Both the position numbers and the translations under genes were made by a program. A stretch of 64,000 nt of DNA from assembly GCA_021794095.1 (NCBI GenBank), contig JAJYRN010000007.1, positions 62,001-126,000 of the forward strand. The letters run 5' to 3'. This stretch comes from Acidobacteriota bacterium. Its GTDB lineage: Bacteria > Acidobacteriota > Holophagae > Holophagales > Holophagaceae. Of the stretch, positions 1 through 6,376 are shown piece after piece (the first letter of the stretch is position 1; the number at the start of each line of letters is the position of its first letter). A model generated the notes under the pieces. It worked only from the letters and a program-made list of their open reading frames with translations, was not told the origin of the DNA and ran no database searches.

Positions 1-48
1 ATAGCAACAGCCATGCCCGGCGGTGTCCATCCCGGGGCAGGAAAGGTG

Positions 49-1227
49 CTATCCATCCTGTCCAATCTTGTCCACGGATGACCAGGGCAGGATCTTCACG
101 CCCTGCCGGGTCTGGGGCTGATGCCCGCCATAGAGGAGGGTGCCTTCGGGGGGGATGCTGGCGTGTCCAGCCAGATCCTGTTGCAGGCCGCGGAGGGGCT
201 CGATCCAGCTGCTGTCGAAGGTCTGGCCGGATTTCATCTCCACCAGGTGGAGGCGGGGACCATCCTCAAGCACCAGATCCACCTCCCGTCCCGAGATTTC
301 CCGGTAGTGGAAGGCCTGGGGCTGGCGGCCCTGGTGGTACTGCTGTTTAAGCAGCTCGGAGGCGGCCCAGCTCTCGAACAAGGCGCCTCGCAGGGGGTGG
401 GTGCGGAGCTGGTCGGGGGACTGGATCCCCAGCAAGTGGCAGGCAAGGCCGGAGTCGAAAAAGTGGAACTTGGGAGCCTTCACCCATCGCTTGCGGAGAT
501 TTGTGTGCCAAGGCGGCAACCGGAAGCCAAGGAAGCTGGTCTCCAGCACCGACAGCCACGCGCGGGCGGTGGGCTGACTGATGCCAGCATCTGTGGCCAG
601 GCGGGACAGGTTCAGTTCCTGGGCCGTGCTTCCCGCGCAGAGGCGCAGGAAGGTGGTGAAGGTAGCCAGGTCACCCACATTCAGGACTTGCCGCACATCG
701 CGTTGCACGTATGTGGCCAGATAGTCCGACAGCCAGCGGCTGGGCGGAATACCCCGGTCATGGATGCGGGGGTAGGCTCCGGCAAACAAGGTGTCGAACA
801 GGCTGTCCGGCGGGTTGGGGAACCGGCGCAGTTCCTCGAGGTTGGGGGGTAACAGATGCAACACGGCCGTACGGCCCGCCAGGGACTGGCTGATGGCTTG
901 GCTCAGTCCAAGGTGCTGAGATCCGGTGAGCATGAACTGGCCGGGAGCGGGATTCCGGTCCACGTGAACCTGGAGGTAGCTCAGCAGATCCGGAGCCTGC
1001 TGAACCTCGTCCAGAATGGCCCCCGAAGGGAATTGGGCCAGGAATCCTCGGGGATCTTCCTGTGCGAAGGCTCGGGTTTCCAAGGGCTCCAGGTTGGTGT
1101 AGGGCTTGTCTGGGAAGGCCTGCTGGCAGAGGGTGGTCTTTCCGGCTTGGCGCGGGCCCGTGAGGGTGACCACCGGGTACAGCTCCGCCGAACGGAGGAG
1201 GACGGGGAGCAGGTTCCGTTGGATCAC
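49..1227 (-). CDS. AAA+ ATPase with C-terminal DUF4143 domain
   Basis: A 392-residue cytoplasmic ATPase of the AAA_14/DUF4143 family. The N-terminal third has a Walker A (TGPRQAGKTTL, about residues 24-34) and a Walker B (AILDEVQQ, about 70-77). The C-terminal DUF4143 part has the nuclease-like pattern EVDLVLEDG...LVEMKSG near residue 320. Such proteins are common in accessory DNA and their substrates are mostly unknown; some are linked to toxin-antitoxin or defence loci. The ATG at 1227 follows an AT-rich stretch (about 1240-1300) that is the likely promoter. Family assignment is firm, function is not. Confidence 0.85.
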   Translation of the reverse strand: MIQRNLLPVLLRSAELYPVVTLTGPRQAGKTTLCQQAFPDKPYTNLEPLETRAFAQEDPRGFLAQFPSGAILDEVQQAPDLLSYLQVHVDRNPAPGQFMLTGSQHLGLSQAISQSLAGRTAVLHLLPPNLEELRRFPNPPDSLFDTLFAGAYPRIHDRGIPPSRWLSDYLATYVQRDVRQVLNVGDLATFTTFLRLCAGSTAQELNLSRLATDAGISQPTARAWLSVLETSFLGFRLPPWHTNLRKRWVKAPKFHFFDSGLACHLLGIQSPDQLRTHPLRGALFESWAASELLKQQYHQGRQPQAFHYREISGREVDLVLEDGPRLHLVEMKSGQTFDSSWIEPLRGLQQDLAGHASIPPEGTLLYGGHQPQTRQGVKILPWSSVDKIGQDG

Positions 1228-1312
1228 AGAACCAGTCTAGATGGGAGTTAGACGAATTAAAAATCAAATTTTGAATCGGTCTAAAACATTAAAGACAGAT
1301 CCTCCATGCGGG

Positions 1313-1408
1313 ATCAGACGGGGTGTCCCGGCATGGCCTGGGGCACCCCGTGGGGGTCCACGAAGGGAGACCTCGTGAGCCGAACGTGAGCAGGCGATCC
1401 TCCCTCGC
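1313..1408 (-). repeat. Hairpin repeat family 1, copy R1
   Basis: Read on the minus strand, this stretch resembles R2 (27855-27953) and R3 (63632-63697). It shares the motif GCCTGCTCACSTTCGG and, farther on, a hairpin followed by CCCGTCTG. The outer stem is a perfect 8 bp (1318-1325 with 1344-1351) enclosing a weaker inner stem. It lies between the Uma2 gene and the AAA ATPase gene. No ORF explains it. Confidence 0.55.
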
Positions 1409-1421
1409 GCCTGCCACGCCC

Positions 1422-1991
1422 TCAGGGCTCGCGTTGGGGCGGGCCGAGCTGGATGGGGAGGGTGTCGCCGAGGAGGCGGAGGGTGGCGCCCCATTCGGCG
1501 CGGGTGAGGGTCTGGTAGAGGCCGTTGGGTCCGAGGCGCAGCAGTTCGGCCCGGCGCTCGTCGGGGTAGACCACCAGGTATTCGGGGACGCCCGCGGCTT
1601 CGTAGCGCCAGCGCTTGGTGGTGAGATCCTTCTGGGCCGTGGCGGGGCTGAGGATCTCCACCACCAGATCGGGGGCGCCTTCGATGCCCCGCTCGGAAAG
1701 CTTGGCGGGATCGCAGACCACCAGCAGGTCGGGCTGGACCACATCGCCGCCCAGGAAGACATCCGTGGGGGCGCTGAAGATCCGGCAGCCGCCGCGGCCG
1801 CTTCCCTGGCGGGCCTCCTGCTGGAGCGCCTGGCCGATGGCCACGTGGAGTTCGGATGAGAAGGTCTGGTGGGCCAGGTTCGGGGCGGGGGTCATGTCGT
1901 AGGCCACGCCGTGGATCAGCTCCCAGCGGCCTTCCCAATCCTTCCAGTCATCCAGCGTGTAGCCGGGGTGTTTCCGTTCGGGCAGGCTCAT
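1422..1991 (-). CDS. Uma2 family (DUF820) putative PD-(D/E)XK nuclease
   Basis: Begins MSLPERKHPGYTLDDW, about 189 residues, the usual Uma2 length. An in-frame ATG 63 bp upstream exists, but the family alignment starts here. Restriction-fold signature: DLVVEILSP near residue 100, then EYLVVYPDERRAELL. Uma2 proteins are abundant in cyanobacteria and other multicellular or environmental bacteria and are presumed endonuclease-like, but few have a known role. The gene is on the same strand as the AAA ATPase and may be cotranscribed, although R1 separates them. Confidence 0.8.
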   Translation of the reverse strand: MSLPERKHPGYTLDDWKDWEGRWELIHGVAYDMTPAPNLAHQTFSSELHVAIGQALQQEARQGSGRGGCRIFSAPTDVFLGGDVVQPDLLVVCDPAKLSERGIEGAPDLVVEILSPATAQKDLTTKRWRYEAAGVPEYLVVYPDERRAELLRLGPNGLYQTLTRAEWGATLRLLGDTLPIQLGPPQREP

Positions 1992-2053
1992 GGGGGCTTC
2001 CGGATCAACGGGCCCAGTTTCGCACGGTTGCCCAGCGAAGGGCGCGGGTGTCA

Positions 2054-2125
2054 CCCCAGGCTCTCCAGCAGTTCCTCAGCCCCGCGGTGCTTGGGATCGA
2101 GCTTGAGGGCCTGCTGGGCGGCCTG
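2054..2125. repeat. 72-bp direct repeat, distal copy
   Basis: Identical over 72 bp to 2761-2832, offset 707 bp. In the minus-strand frame it still encodes QAAQQALKLDPKHRGAEELL, the last residues of the TPR gene, but is detached from it. With the other copy it brackets the brnTA genes. Confidence 0.9.
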
Positions 2126-2130
2126 ACGGA

Positions 2131-2466
2131 TCAGCCGGCCTTGTGGTTCCGGGTCCACTCCGCCAGGGCCTGCCGCATGGCCGCATGGAGGGTGAGCCCC
2201 GAAGCCTGGGCGGATTGCTGCATCTGCTCCCAGAACGCGGGAGGCATCTTGATCACCTTGGGCTGGATGGGTGCTTCCTCGCCCCTGGGCGGACGCCCCG
2301 GCCGGATGCGGATCGGGATGGCGCCCTTGAGTGGTTGGTCCTGATGGGCCATGGCCCAGGCCACATCTTCCGGGTGCCGATTCTGAAGAACCTCCAGGGG
2401 TTCGCCCAGGCCCAGCGAATCCAGGAAGGCTGCTTCGGTCATGGTCTTGGTGCGGGTCCTGGTCAT
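2131..2466 (-). CDS. brnA: Antitoxin of the BrnA/CopG type
   Basis: A 111-residue protein whose start overlaps the end of the BrnT toxin gene by 4 bp, the normal toxin-first order of brnTA. The C-terminal half (PKVIKMPPAFWEQMQ...MRQALAEWTRNHK) fits a ribbon-helix-helix DNA-binding segment. The N-terminal half should wrap the toxin. BrnA usually represses its own operon, and palindromes at 2727-2756 are candidate sites. Its 3' end lies next to the distal copy of the 72-bp repeat. The call rests on partner and layout more than on sequence identity. Confidence 0.7.
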   Translation of the reverse strand: MTRTRTKTMTEAAFLDSLGLGEPLEVLQNRHPEDVAWAMAHQDQPLKGAIPIRIRPGRPPRGEEAPIQPKVIKMPPAFWEQMQQSAQASGLTLHAAMRQALAEWTRNHKAG

Positions 2467-2711
2467 GTGCGCCTCCGTCTCCGGGAAACGGGAAAAGCCG
2501 TGGTGATGCGAATTCCCTCGGGAAAGACTTTCGAGAAAGGAACCCGGTAAAGCTGCCCAGCCACGGTGCCCTCAGCGATGAATCTGTTCCGGCGCTCAGG
2601 ATCGGCGAGGTAACGAAAATCATCCGCATGGAATACCGATTCGGCGGTGGCGACCGCGACATCATGAGCCGCGATTTCGGCCCGGTTGATGTCATCCCAG
2701 ACGAACTTCAC
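2463..2711 (-). CDS. brnT: BrnT family RNase toxin
   Basis: An 82-residue protein typical of BrnT in length and layout: MKFVWDDINRAEIAAHDV, then the VFHADDFRYLADPERR stretch, then a C-terminal IRITTAFPVSRRRR arginine cluster like the RxxSxRxAxxxER ending of BrnT. BrnT has a RelE-like fold and is reported to cleave RNA. It is preceded by a good Shine-Dalgarno (GAGGAG on the minus strand) and by two palindromes. The catalytic residues are not all certain by eye, so activity is not assured. Confidence 0.75.
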   Translation of the reverse strand: MKFVWDDINRAEIAAHDVAVATAESVFHADDFRYLADPERRNRFIAEGTVAGQLYRVPFSKVFPEGIRITTAFPVSRRRRRT

Positions 2712-2726
2712 GGCACCTCCTCAATA

Positions 2727-2756
2727 AAAGGTAATACCTTTGATTGAAAGGTCAAT
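2727..2756. promoter_or_regulatory. Two inverted repeats, candidate BrnA operator
   Basis: AAAGGT (2727-2732) pairs with ACCTTT (2736-2741) around a 3-nt spacer. ATTGA (2743-2747) pairs with TCAAT (2752-2756) around 4 nt. Both lie within 45 bp upstream of brnT, where a self-repressing antitoxin would bind. On the minus strand a TTGACC hexamer (2752-2757) could be a -35; I see no convincing -10. Confidence 0.45.
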
Positions 2757-3822
2757 CCCGCCCCAGGCTCTCCAGCAGTTCCTCAGCCCCGCGGTGCTTG
2801 GGATCGAGCTTGAGGGCCTGCTGGGCGGCCTGGCGGGCTTCGGCGGTGCGGCCCAGGGCCTTGAGGATCTGGCCCTTCCGCCACCAGGCTCCGGCGTAGC
2901 CGGCGCTGCCGCCTTCGAGGGGCTCGCGGAGGACCTGATCCAGGGCGGCGAGGCCTTCCGGGAGGTGCTGGCCGGAGCGGGCGGCCACCTTGCCCAACTG
3001 GAGGCGGAGGAGGCTGGGGGCATCGGTGTGGCCCAGGTGAGCCTGGACGACCTGCCAGGCCAGGTCCGGGCGCCCGGCGTTCAGGTCGGCGTCGCTGGCG
3101 GCGGAGACCGCCCGGGCGCTCCAGGCCACGGGGGGCAGCAGGCGGGCGGCCTCCCCCAGCAGGCGGGCGTTCTTCCCGGCTTCGCCCAGGGCGTGCTTGG
3201 CGGCGTGGCTATCGAGGGAATCGAGGTACTCGGCCACGATCTCGGGATCGCCGGGCGCCGTGGCCAGGGCGCGGCCGAAGTAGGGTTCGGCGTCGTGCCA
3301 GCGATCCTCCTGCACCAGCACCAGGGCCTGGAGGAGGTCCCCCCGGGATGGATTCACCCGGCGCAGGGACTCGGCGCAGGCCAGGGCCTTGCGGGTGCTG
3401 CCGCCCAGAATGCCCGGCAGCATCTCGTAGGCCAGGCCCAGGCTCATCCAGGCATCCTGGAGGGTGGGGTCGGCCTTGGCGGCGGCGCGGAAATCGTCCA
3501 TGGCGTCCAGGGCCTTGCGCAGGGAGCCGAGGTTCCGCTGGGCGATGGCGGTGCCGGCCCGGGCCAGTCCCCGGGCCAGGAGGGCATCGGCCAGGCCGGG
3601 TTGGAGGGCCAGGGCGCGATCCGCCGCGGCCCGGGCTTCCGGGAAGCGCTGGAGGCTGCTGAGTGCCTGGGACTTCGCGGCCCAGGCCAGGGCATCGTTC
3701 GGGTTCTGCTGGAGCCGCCGTCCGGCCTCCGCCAGGGCGGCCAGGTAGTGGCCCGCGTCAAGATCCGGACGCGGGGCGTAGGGAGCCTGGACAGCGAGGG
3801 CGGGTGGGGTGAATGGGATCAT
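2752..3822 (-). CDS. Tetratricopeptide repeat protein
   Basis: A 356-residue protein made largely of TPR-type helical pairs, for example AWAAKSQALSSLQRFPEARA (residues about 46-65), AWMSLGLAYEML near 124 and AWWRKGQILKALGRTAEARQ near 313. These are protein-interaction scaffolds. Alanine and leucine dominate. No clear signal peptide follows this ATG, although the N-terminus (MIPFTPPALAVQA) is apolar. The last 24 codons are duplicated at 2054-2125, and its stop codon lies inside the putative operator of brnT. Function beyond the TPR fold is unknown. Confidence 0.8.
   Translation of the reverse strand: MIPFTPPALAVQAPYAPRPDLDAGHYLAALAEAGRRLQQNPNDALAWAAKSQALSSLQRFPEARAAADRALALQPGLADALLARGLARAGTAIAQRNLGSLRKALDAMDDFRAAAKADPTLQDAWMSLGLAYEMLPGILGGSTRKALACAESLRRVNPSRGDLLQALVLVQEDRWHDAEPYFGRALATAPGDPEIVAEYLDSLDSHAAKHALGEAGKNARLLGEAARLLPPVAWSARAVSAASDADLNAGRPDLAWQVVQAHLGHTDAPSLLRLQLGKVAARSGQHLPEGLAALDQVLREPLEGGSAGYAGAWWRKGQILKALGRTAEARQAAQQALKLDPKHRGAEELLESLGRD
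2761..2832. repeat. 72-bp direct repeat, copy inside the TPR gene
   Basis: The 3' end of the TPR gene, identical to 2054-2125. Similarity fades just inside the gene after one mismatch, so the distal copy is a fragment and not a second TPR gene. Confidence 0.9.
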
Positions 3823-3943
3823 GGGGGGCCTTCACGAGAGGCTGGGACAGGATGAACAGGATAAAGGCATGGGGGGCGCAAGGGCCTTGATCCATCCGAC
3901 ATGGATGCGCCTCATTCATGTGCATGGTTCATGGAAGCCGGTG

Positions 3944-4133
3944 ATGAACCCCCTCTATGCTCAGAATGCCGCGAAGCGGCCCGTCAACTTCACCCTCAAT
4001 AGCGATCTGGTTAGGCTCGGCAAGGAACTGGGGATCAACCTCTCCGGCGTGGGGGAACCAGGACGCGATCGGAGCCTACAACCGGCGGATCGAGGTGGAG
4101 GGTGTGTTCAGCGATGGGTTGAGATCCTTCTGA
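3944..4133 (+). pseudogene. ccdA: ccdA antitoxin gene with internal deletion
   Basis: The 5' part encodes MNPLYAQNAAKRPVNF...ELGINLSG, the N-terminal ribbon-helix-helix half of CcdA. In another frame, from 4050, the sequence encodes GNQDAIGAYNRRIEVEGVF...SDGLRSF then TGA, the C-terminal CcdB-binding tail. The roughly 18-21 residues that normally join the halves are missing and the frame changes at about 4047-4052. One deletion not divisible by three explains both. The stop overlaps the ccdB start as TGATG. A protein read from this ATG would have no toxin-binding tail and would run on into CcdB. Confidence 0.75.
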
Positions 4134-4450
4134 TGGGAGCCTTCGCCGTCCACCGGAACCTGGATGCCCGGACCCAAGGCGACCTCCCGTTCCTCCTCGA
4201 TGTGCAGTCGGAGGTGCTCGCCATCCTGGGCACCCGCGTGGTGGTGCCGTTGTACCGGAGGGCGGCTGTCGGGCCCCAGGTCATGACCCGCCTCACGCCG
4301 GTCCTGCCGTTCCAGGGGCAGGATCTGGTGGCCATGGTGCCTGAGCTGGCGGGCGTTCCCCGCCACCGCCTGGGACCGGCCGCCGGCGATCTCGCGGGTG
4401 CGAGTACGGACCTGCTTCAGGCGCTGGAGCTTCTGCTGACGGGGTTTTGA
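4133..4450 (+). CDS. ccdB: CcdB family gyrase-poisoning toxin
   Basis: 105 residues, full length for CcdB. It keeps the family pattern: an N-terminal AFAVHRN strand, PFLLDVQSEVLAILGTRVVV near residue 22 (compare [20 protein letters not shown] in F-plasmid CcdB), VPLYRR, and a C-terminal LQALELLLTGF helix. In CcdB the last residues contact GyrA; the final Trp-Gly-Ile of the plasmid protein is here Thr-Gly-Phe, so gyrase poisoning is uncertain. The ATG overlaps the ccdA stop, so translation was coupled. An intact toxin beside a damaged antitoxin implies that it is inactive, silent or neutralised elsewhere. Confidence 0.8.
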   Translation: MGAFAVHRNLDARTQGDLPFLLDVQSEVLAILGTRVVVPLYRRAAVGPQVMTRLTPVLPFQGQDLVAMVPELAGVPRHRLGPAAGDLAGASTDLLQALELLLTGF

Positions 4451-4548
4451 AGGGCGTAACAGTGGCCTCCTGACCCCGGGTATAGTGCGGGGGCGCGGGT
4501 TTGCGGTATGCTGGGTGATTGTCTGGACACGGCTCTGGAGGGAATTCC

Positions 4549-5328
4549 ATGACCATCAAGGGTGGGCTGCTGGAAGGCAAGCGAGGCCTGATCATCGGTG
4601 TGGCCAACAAGCGCTCCATCGCCTGGGGCATCACCCAGACGGTGGCGGAGGCCGGCGCGCAGCTCTGCCTGACCTACCAGAACGAGCGCCTGGGCGACAA
4701 CGTCCGCGAGCTGGCGGCGGAACTGAAACACCCGCTGCTGCTGCCCATGGACGTGGGCAGTGACAGCCAGATCGTAATGGCCTTCGACGAGATCCGGAAG
4801 AAGTGGGGGAAGCTGGATTTCGTGGTCCATGCGGTGGCCTACGCGCCCCGGCAGGCCCTGGAAGGCCGCTTCATGGACACCAGCCGCGAGGATTTCCGCG
4901 TGGCCCACGACATCAGCGCCTACTCCCTGGCCGCCGTGGCCCACGCGGCTGCGCCCCTGATGGCCGAGGGCGGCACCATCCTCACCCTCAGCTACCTGGG
5001 CGGCACCCGGGTGGTGCCCAACTACAACGTCATGGGCGTGGCCAAGGCCAGCCTGGAGGCCAGCGTGCGCTACCTGGCCGCGGACCTCGGCCCCCAGGGC
5101 ATCCGCGTGAACGCCATCTCCGCCGGGCCCGTCAAGACCCTGGCCGCTTCGGGCATCTCCGGTTTCAGCTCCATGCTCAAGCACCACCGCAGCCGTACGC
5201 CGCTCCAGAAGGACACCGAGCCGCGGGAAGTGGGGGATGCGGCGCTGTTCTTCGTGAGCGCCATGGGCCGCGGCGTCACCGGGCAAGTGCTCTACGTGGA
5301 TGGCGGCTACAGCATCATGGCGGACTGA
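4549..5328 (+). CDS. fabI: Enoyl-[acyl-carrier-protein] reductase (NADH), FabI
   Basis: 259 residues, the FabI length. It reduces the trans-2-enoyl-ACP bond in the last step of each type II fatty acid elongation cycle. The Rossmann motif GVANKRSIAWGI is at 17-28. The catalytic Tyr159 and Lys166 sit in PNYNVMGVAK, with a second tyrosine at 149 in LSYLGG, matching Tyr156/Lys163/Tyr146 of the E. coli enzyme. The ATG at 4549 has a GGAGGG site upstream. It stands alone, away from fabD and plsX at 45-47 kb. Confidence 0.95.
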   Translation: MTIKGGLLEGKRGLIIGVANKRSIAWGITQTVAEAGAQLCLTYQNERLGDNVRELAAELKHPLLLPMDVGSDSQIVMAFDEIRKKWGKLDFVVHAVAYAPRQALEGRFMDTSREDFRVAHDISAYSLAAVAHAAAPLMAEGGTILTLSYLGGTRVVPNYNVMGVAKASLEASVRYLAADLGPQGIRVNAISAGPVKTLAASGISGFSSMLKHHRSRTPLQKDTEPREVGDAALFFVSAMGRGVTGQVLYVDGGYSIMAD

Positions 5329-5392
5329 AGCGTCAGTCCCATCGCCCCCCGTTGCCGGAATGGAGCTTCCGCACCGCCCATCAACCTGGATC

Positions 5393-6376
5393 TCAGGCGA
5401 TGGTTCCGCCCCTCGGTTTCGGCTTGCTTTTCACCTTCGCTCTGGGTTTCGCGGGGGTGGGCTTGGCTGCTTGGGCCTTCACCGTTCTCGGCTTCACGGG
5501 GTTCGATCTGGCGGGCTTGGCCTTTTTTGCCTCCGCAGGGGCTGCCTTCGAGGTTCGGGCCTTCGCCGCCTTGGTTTTCGGGGCAGCAGGGGCCTTGCTG
5601 GCGCGCGCCAGGGGGGATGCCGGCTTGGCGGTTTTGGTGACCGTCGCTGTGGGCGCAACGGGGGCTGTTCCCATCTCCAACCCAAAGAGCTCCGATAGAT
5701 CCTCCCCTTCCAGGGCGCGGTCTGCGGTGGGTGCCGGGGTGGACACGGCTAGGCCCGAGGCGGCCTGAGCGAGGAGATCGCTGCCATCCACCCCCCGAAG
5801 CTGGAAAAGCAGTTCGGGCTCGGCATCGAGGCGCGCGCCAATGCCGTAGAGGACGGCGGCCACGTGCTTGCACATGTAGGCCCCATCGGGGCAGGAGCAG
5901 GACAGGTTGATGTCGGCTGGCACGGGGAAGAGTCCCCCGCCCTGGCGACAGATACGCTCCATGACCCCCCTGCTGAAGCGGCCCTGAAGAAGTTCCACCA
6001 GGGAGGCAATGGCCCCGCCGCAGTCCTTGCAGAGCGCCTGCCACTGCGGGCCGGACACCGGCTTCACCTTCACCCGCACCTGGTAGATGTGGGATCCGCT
6101 CACCTGCGCCTCCACCAGACCGGCTGATACCTGGAGGTCCAGGACGGACCCGTTGCGCACATAGGTTCGGCCGCGCGGCAGACGGTTGGCGTAGTCGCTG
6201 TAGCGCTCAAGGTTCTCGCACCAGGCCTTGCCCCAGAAGGTGCGGGCGATGGTGCGCCCCTCGATGATGATCGGCGCGACGGGATGCCCATGCTTGCGGA
6301 GCTTCTCCATGGCCCGCGCCGCTTTCCGGCGGCGTTCGGCCACGGAAACATATGCGGGCCAACCGTCATAGGACAT
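5393..6376 (-). CDS. SWIM zinc-finger protein with basic Ala/Lys/Pro tail
   Basis: 327 residues in two parts. Residues 1 to about 190 form a SWIM domain protein, with zinc ligands in SCSCPDGAYMCKHVAAVLYG (about 158-177). The last 110 residues are almost only Ala, Lys, Pro, Arg and Thr in short repeats, like histone H1 or the AlgP tail, and should be disordered and DNA- or RNA-binding. The gene starts 3 bp after the stop of the SNF2 ATPase gene. SWIM and SNF2 genes are often paired, so the two probably act together on DNA. The target is unknown. Confidence 0.85.
   Translation of the reverse strand: MSYDGWPAYVSVAERRRKAARAMEKLRKHGHPVAPIIIEGRTIARTFWGKAWCENLERYSDYANRLPRGRTYVRNGSVLDLQVSAGLVEAQVSGSHIYQVRVKVKPVSGPQWQALCKDCGGAIASLVELLQGRFSRGVMERICRQGGGLFPVPADINLSCSCPDGAYMCKHVAAVLYGIGARLDAEPELLFQLRGVDGSDLLAQAASGLAVSTPAPTADRALEGEDLSELFGLEMGTAPVAPTATVTKTAKPASPLARASKAPAAPKTKAAKARTSKAAPAEAKKAKPARSNPVKPRTVKAQAAKPTPAKPRAKVKSKPKPRGGTIA

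Follow-up and report, generated by a model that had tools for sequence, protein, structure and literature searches.

Genomic islands and phages that target tRNA genes integrate at the 3' end of the gene and re-create that end. The entry of chromosomal toxin-antitoxin (TA) genes without a carrier mobile element is largely unexplained. According to the accounts summarised in PMC3874152, PMC1643837 and PMC3031569, restriction-modification (R-M) genes insert with a long and variable duplication of the target, of about 100 bp; the original descriptions are those of Nobusato et al. (2000) and Furuta et al. (2010). Single crossovers of small molecules in the laboratory likewise produce partial target duplications, of 109-950 bp (PMC3240628). 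We found no report of insertion with long target duplication for TA operons in the literature searched, which lay mostly outside the subscription journals.

Here we describe a brnTA operon in a 64-kb stretch of DNA (64,000 nucleotides, the window) from a soil bacterium of the genus Geothrix, genome G000. A repeat search of the window returned a pair of direct repeats, identical at 75 of 76 positions and 707 bp apart from start to start (Table 1). When the window was compared with itself by BLAST, this pair (E = 4e-31) was the sole such pair spaced within 8 kb. The 72/72-identical stretch described in the original prediction is contained within this repeat, and its 707-bp spacing was reproduced. 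The repeat does not, as had been stated, comprise the last 24 codons of the TPR gene: it spans codons 330-354 plus one base, and the intact gene ends Arg-Asp-stop (CGG GAT TGA), with these two codons and the stop outside the repeat and not duplicated. In the distal copy, a TGA stop directly follows Gly354, and in the TPR tails of a related genome, G021, the stop also directly follows the same Gly codon. The other elements of the predicted arrangement hold, in that the TPR gene, which is present in 70 of the 77 genomes of the family, retains its full ORF and brnTA lies between the copies, with the brnA stop codon (2131-2133) one base from the distal copy. Rfam gave no match in window positions 1-6000. 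Near the TPR gene, a GGACAGGATGAACAGGAT motif lies at 3845-3862; in several Geothrix, the TPR stop is followed by similar AGGATTAACAGGATTAA repeats, which encode the last TPR residues, Gly-Gln-Asp. A ccdAB pair is located upstream of the TPR gene (3957-4450), and its ccdA is apparently frameshifted in the window and intact in G029 (L032 984-1546).

Table 1 Features of the brnTA locus in the window and of two further bracketed TA loci.
Feature	Coordinates	Strand	Basis or remarks
Uma2-family nuclease gene	1422..1991	-	PF05685, E 1.2e-29; next gene behind the distal copy
Gene-end repeat, distal copy; read as displaced old TPR 3' end	2054..2129	-	Direct repeat; TGA directly after
Putative brnA antitoxin gene	2131..2466	-	111 aa; position; overlaps brnT by 4 bases
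brnT-like RNase toxin gene, predicted	2463..2711	-	82 aa, GTG start; PF04365; fold match
Palindrome AAAGGTAATACCTTT	2727..2741	.	Upstream of brnT; seen in the sequence
TPR-repeat protein gene, target	2752..3822	-	Intact ORF, 356 codons; TPR Pfam families
Gene-end repeat, proximal copy in the intact TPR gene	2761..2836	-	Codons 330-354; direct repeat, 75/76
hicAB locus	G000:C22:153173-155180 (L141 7173-9180)		307-bp copy, 96%
Bracketed brnTA of G026	G026:C146 (L179 1259-2390)		118-bp copy, 99%

The interval between the copies holds only the brnT-like toxin gene and a putative ribbon-helix-helix antitoxin gene, and the 707-bp unit has no recombinase ORF between the copies. The toxin matched the Pfam family BrnT_toxin (PF04365) with an E value of 2.3e-6, which is nevertheless below the curated cut-off. 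An AlphaFold model built with five Geothrix homologues reached a pLDDT of 88.7, and Foldseek returned two clear PDB matches for this model, 7vd7 (a Salmonella toxin) and 3u97 (Brucella BrnT; TM 0.72-0.76). The same two structures ranked top in a PDB profile search. By sequence family and by its modelled, RelE-like BrnT fold, the product is thus a predicted BrnT toxin. The putative BrnA gave no Pfam match at the default threshold and none to PF14384, the only signals being weak matches to RHH_4/RHH_1 (E about 0.1); its homologues adjoin brnT in other Geothrix. The palindrome is likely, judging from its sequence and position, to be the operator of the brnTA operon. For the Uma2 gene, the start was set at MSLPERK by comparison with G021, in which the gene order is the same.

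The comparison with relatives drew on 40 genomes in which the sequence behind the TPR gene was readable. The second TPR copy was absent from 36 of them and present in G000, G021, G022 and G026; the second TPR ends of G057 and G069 were left out of the count, because each sits at the end of a contig and could reflect a mixture of strains. The same junction between the brnA stop and the TPR copy was found in three species, represented by G000, G022 and G021, the latter two being low-coverage metagenome assemblies. Whereas the copies are 75/76 identical in G000, identity falls to 96% in G022, and in G021 the copy is degenerate and brnT has also lost most of its length. Between G000 and G021, identity is 90.5% for brnA, 88% for Uma2 and 88% for fabI. 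The divergence of brnA and Uma2 is therefore close to that of fabI, which indicates that the block has long been inherited vertically and that the insertion predates the split of G000 and G021. As read from these sequences, the brnTA insertion is old and dates to a common ancestor of three or more Geothrix species. The recent event that had been suggested is not supported, given the shared junction, the drift of the copies in two genomes and the fabI identity of about 88%. G011 is without the insertion although it is as close in fabI (90%). In most Geothrix, pilin genes or a variable polysaccharide cluster lie behind the TPR gene, and many relatives have one TPR end but differ in their downstream genes. 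Clean loss of the module by recombination between the copies is possible in principle; such a deletion was seen in no genome compared.

The TPR gene end appears to have received further insertions. In G021, four TPR-end copies lie downstream of the gene, the last of them weak (73%), and the cargo between them comprises brnA, a pair of genes encoding 98 and 92 aa to which no family was assigned, and an NTP_transf_8 nucleotidyltransferase gene. Three of these four copies (G021:C49; L027 7868-9914 and 11175-11234), namely those at brnTA and the 98+92-aa pair and the weak fourth, begin at or near CCCGCCA with differing cargo, a shared start that random joining does not predict. In G026, the full TPR gene is followed by a nucleotidyltransferase gene on the opposite strand and then by a 141-bp TPR end that runs into a flippase gene. 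The sole TPR end of G027 stands directly before the same flippase gene and is collinear with the distal end of G026 over about 630 bp, so that, by this alignment, G026 and G027 are the filled and the empty site. The search for an empty site in relatives that had been proposed for brnTA was thus successful for the G026 event. Because the old downstream sequence follows on from the distal copy of G026, this copy is the original gene end, moved outwards; in G000, the stop codon immediately behind Gly354, a feature shared with the G021 copies, suggests the same origin for the distal copy. The copies at the TPR gene are about 57, 76, 81, 141 and 271 bp long. A 57-bp TPR gene end follows at once behind a vapBC-like pair in G029 (G029:C29; L032 156-851), on a contig apart from the TPR gene that stops 155 bp past this piece, next to ccdAB and fabI. 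With a sequence model built from the TPR tail, strong matches were confined to TPR loci, and no copies lay scattered through the genomes. When a donor switch was sought inside the TPR gene, the gene proved to be a mosaic in G026 and G021.

The same bracket was found at other loci. In G000, hicAB, which itself lies in a variable island, sits between a 472-codon gene and a 307-bp, 96% identical copy of the 3' end of that gene. A second brnTA of G026 is flanked by a cytochrome c gene and a 118-bp, 99% identical copy of a segment of it, which is internal rather than the very end of the gene. No clean empty site was found for hicAB or for this cytochrome-flanked brnTA. The brackets are direct repeats of resident sequence of roughly 100 bp (76, 307, 118 and 141 bp). 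In G037, the similarity of a homologue to the window brnTA is confined to the inter-copy interval, and G029 and G040 each carry the G026 brnTA unit (about 575 bp) by itself. TA operons thus recur without the flanking copies, and the operon itself appears to be the moving unit. Such repeats are rare: 397 kb of contig C16 contained none with a length of 50 bp or more and an identity of 88% or more at a spacing of 0.2-6 kb, and about 836 kb of G000 yielded just two pairs with 70 bp or more, 95% identity or more and a spacing above 200 bp, both around TA modules. This rarity is an estimate from a sample of 397 kb, 375 kb and the window, about 28% of the genome. Elsewhere in G000, a further brnTA-like pair with an AAA/DUF4143 gene lies between 50-bp, 94% identical repeats (G000:C1; L144 4360-6732), and a 131-bp inverted sequence, 99% identical, occurs near both ends of contig C22 (1-131 and about 156035-156165), likely as a repeat at an assembly break. 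Integron-like arrays (GCCTAACGAA...GTTAGGC) were noted in G029:C11 (L185), G006:C17 (L167), G025 (L168), G044 (L158) and G010:C7 (L249), and several of them hold TA cassettes.

The copies appear to have been kept alike within genomes. At sites 30 and 35, the gene and the copy of both G000 and G022 carry C and T, and the gene and the brnTA copy of G021 carry A and C; at site 47, both G000 copies have C and both G022 copies have G. Moreover, the G000 copies differ at one of 76 positions despite a duplication older than the split of G000 and G021, whereas a rough Poisson expectation is 7 differences (P = 0.007 for one or none). This sharing of variants within genomes is moderate evidence, from few sites, for later gene conversion between the copies. 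The ongoing exchange envisaged in the original prediction is borne out to this extent, as three variable sites are common to the copies within a genome and not to the orthologues. Taken together, the repeat is real, the insertion is old and the pattern recurs in Geothrix.

We consider it probable that brnTA was inserted behind the TPR gene by recombination that duplicated the 3' end of the gene, making it a TA counterpart of insertion with long target duplication. The locus could instead descend from an old tandem duplication of the TPR end, since eroded, into which brnTA fell by chance and to which it is unrelated. The drift of the copies in G022 and G021 would fit such a history, as would the junction from TPR to pilin or O-antigen genes, a variable region in the genus. 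We regard it as unlikely, because cargo separates every downstream copy seen from the gene, only one TPR end is present in 36 of 40 genomes, where the original prediction expected an old duplication to show both copies in all relatives, and two other loci bracket TA modules in the same manner with other genes. Somewhat less likely again is that a recombinase acting in trans integrated the module site-specifically, using an att site of the gene 3' end and re-creating that end. The target is indeed a gene 3' end, the start of the copy lies at about CCCGCCA for brnTA and the 98+92-aa pair and perhaps for the fourth copy, and the 76-mer can form a hairpin; yet the unit encodes no recombinase, the varying copy lengths leave no constant att core, and the hairpin has only moderate stability (z about -2.5) and is missing from one G021 copy. 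A hairpin or attC-like site in the gene-end copy was considered as a candidate and rejected, being foldable but not conserved. From the integration with end re-creation that had been proposed at the outset, we thus retain the insertion, the intact gene and the displaced old 3' end, in accordance with the single TPR end of most genomes and the filled and empty sites of G026 and G027, and we do not favour its site-specific form, given the missing recombinase and copies ranging from about 57 to 271 bp.

Two further explanations carry very little weight. Geothrix has attC-like arrays with repeats of about 125 bp that carry BrnT-type cassettes, and the window brnTA might be a stray cassette of this kind; this is highly improbable, because the gene-end copy is TPR coding sequence without a GTTAGGC/GCCTAAC box and the attC-like repeats present at other BrnT loci do not occur beside the window brnTA. 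Repeat-flanked loci are prone to misassembly, but the independent G022 assembly shows these junctions too, and with substitutions of its own, making an assembly artefact the least credible of all.

Insertion by duplicating recombination, the reading that we prefer, would have proceeded as follows. An operon of about 625 bp would have entered behind the TPR gene in the ancestor of at least three Geothrix species, duplicating the 3' end of the gene, so that the intact gene now leads into the module, and its former end, displaced to the far side, survives as a 76-bp fragment. RecA-dependent recombination of the resident TPR gene with imported DNA carrying a TPR 3' end and the TA operon is the most likely route, either as a single crossover of a circularised fragment or with one homologous and one illegitimate junction. 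No donor of the insertion was found, and the single-crossover route is one that we infer. Copy lengths that vary over all loci from about 57 to 307 bp, and the absence of a recombinase, speak against an integrase. Gene conversion would afterwards have kept the G000 copies nearly identical, and addiction to the toxin may have helped the module to persist. A broader reading is possible, though we offer it tentatively: bare TA operons in Geothrix may be mobile units without transposase or attC that insert time after time, each time duplicating a long segment of an adjacent gene, favour the 3' end of a single conserved gene, stack there, are held by addiction and have their copies maintained by gene conversion.

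As in tRNA-gene islands and phages, the target stays intact, the old end is displaced to the far side and insertions can stack, whereas the insertions at the TPR end have neither an integrase nor a fixed core length. BrnT-type modules are cassettes in Geothrix arrays, as TA genes are in chromosomal integrons, but the window brnTA lacks an attC site. Single crossover and homology-facilitated illegitimate recombination of linear DNA also leave a partial target duplication beside foreign DNA (PMC3240628); those events involved engineered plasmids in E. coli. The R-M-like footprint at brnTA and hicAB, the sister empty site and the stacked events provide a concrete system for testing the route of entry. 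With R-M insertion, the locus shares a small operon of the addiction type that has no recombinase of its own, a resident duplication of about 100 bp and variable length, and an empty site in a relative, here for the G026 event. It differs in its host, Geothrix (Acidobacteriota) rather than Helicobacter, in the several successive ends of one gene, and in its cargo, which consists of type II TA operons (brnTA, hicAB) and a nucleotidyltransferase gene instead of R-M genes. Because the cargo is TA and not R-M, we view it as a variant that works like R-M insertion rather than a member of the R-M form, and the recurrence of such bracketed modules in Geothrix suggests that TA genes can enter chromosomes as some R-M genes do.
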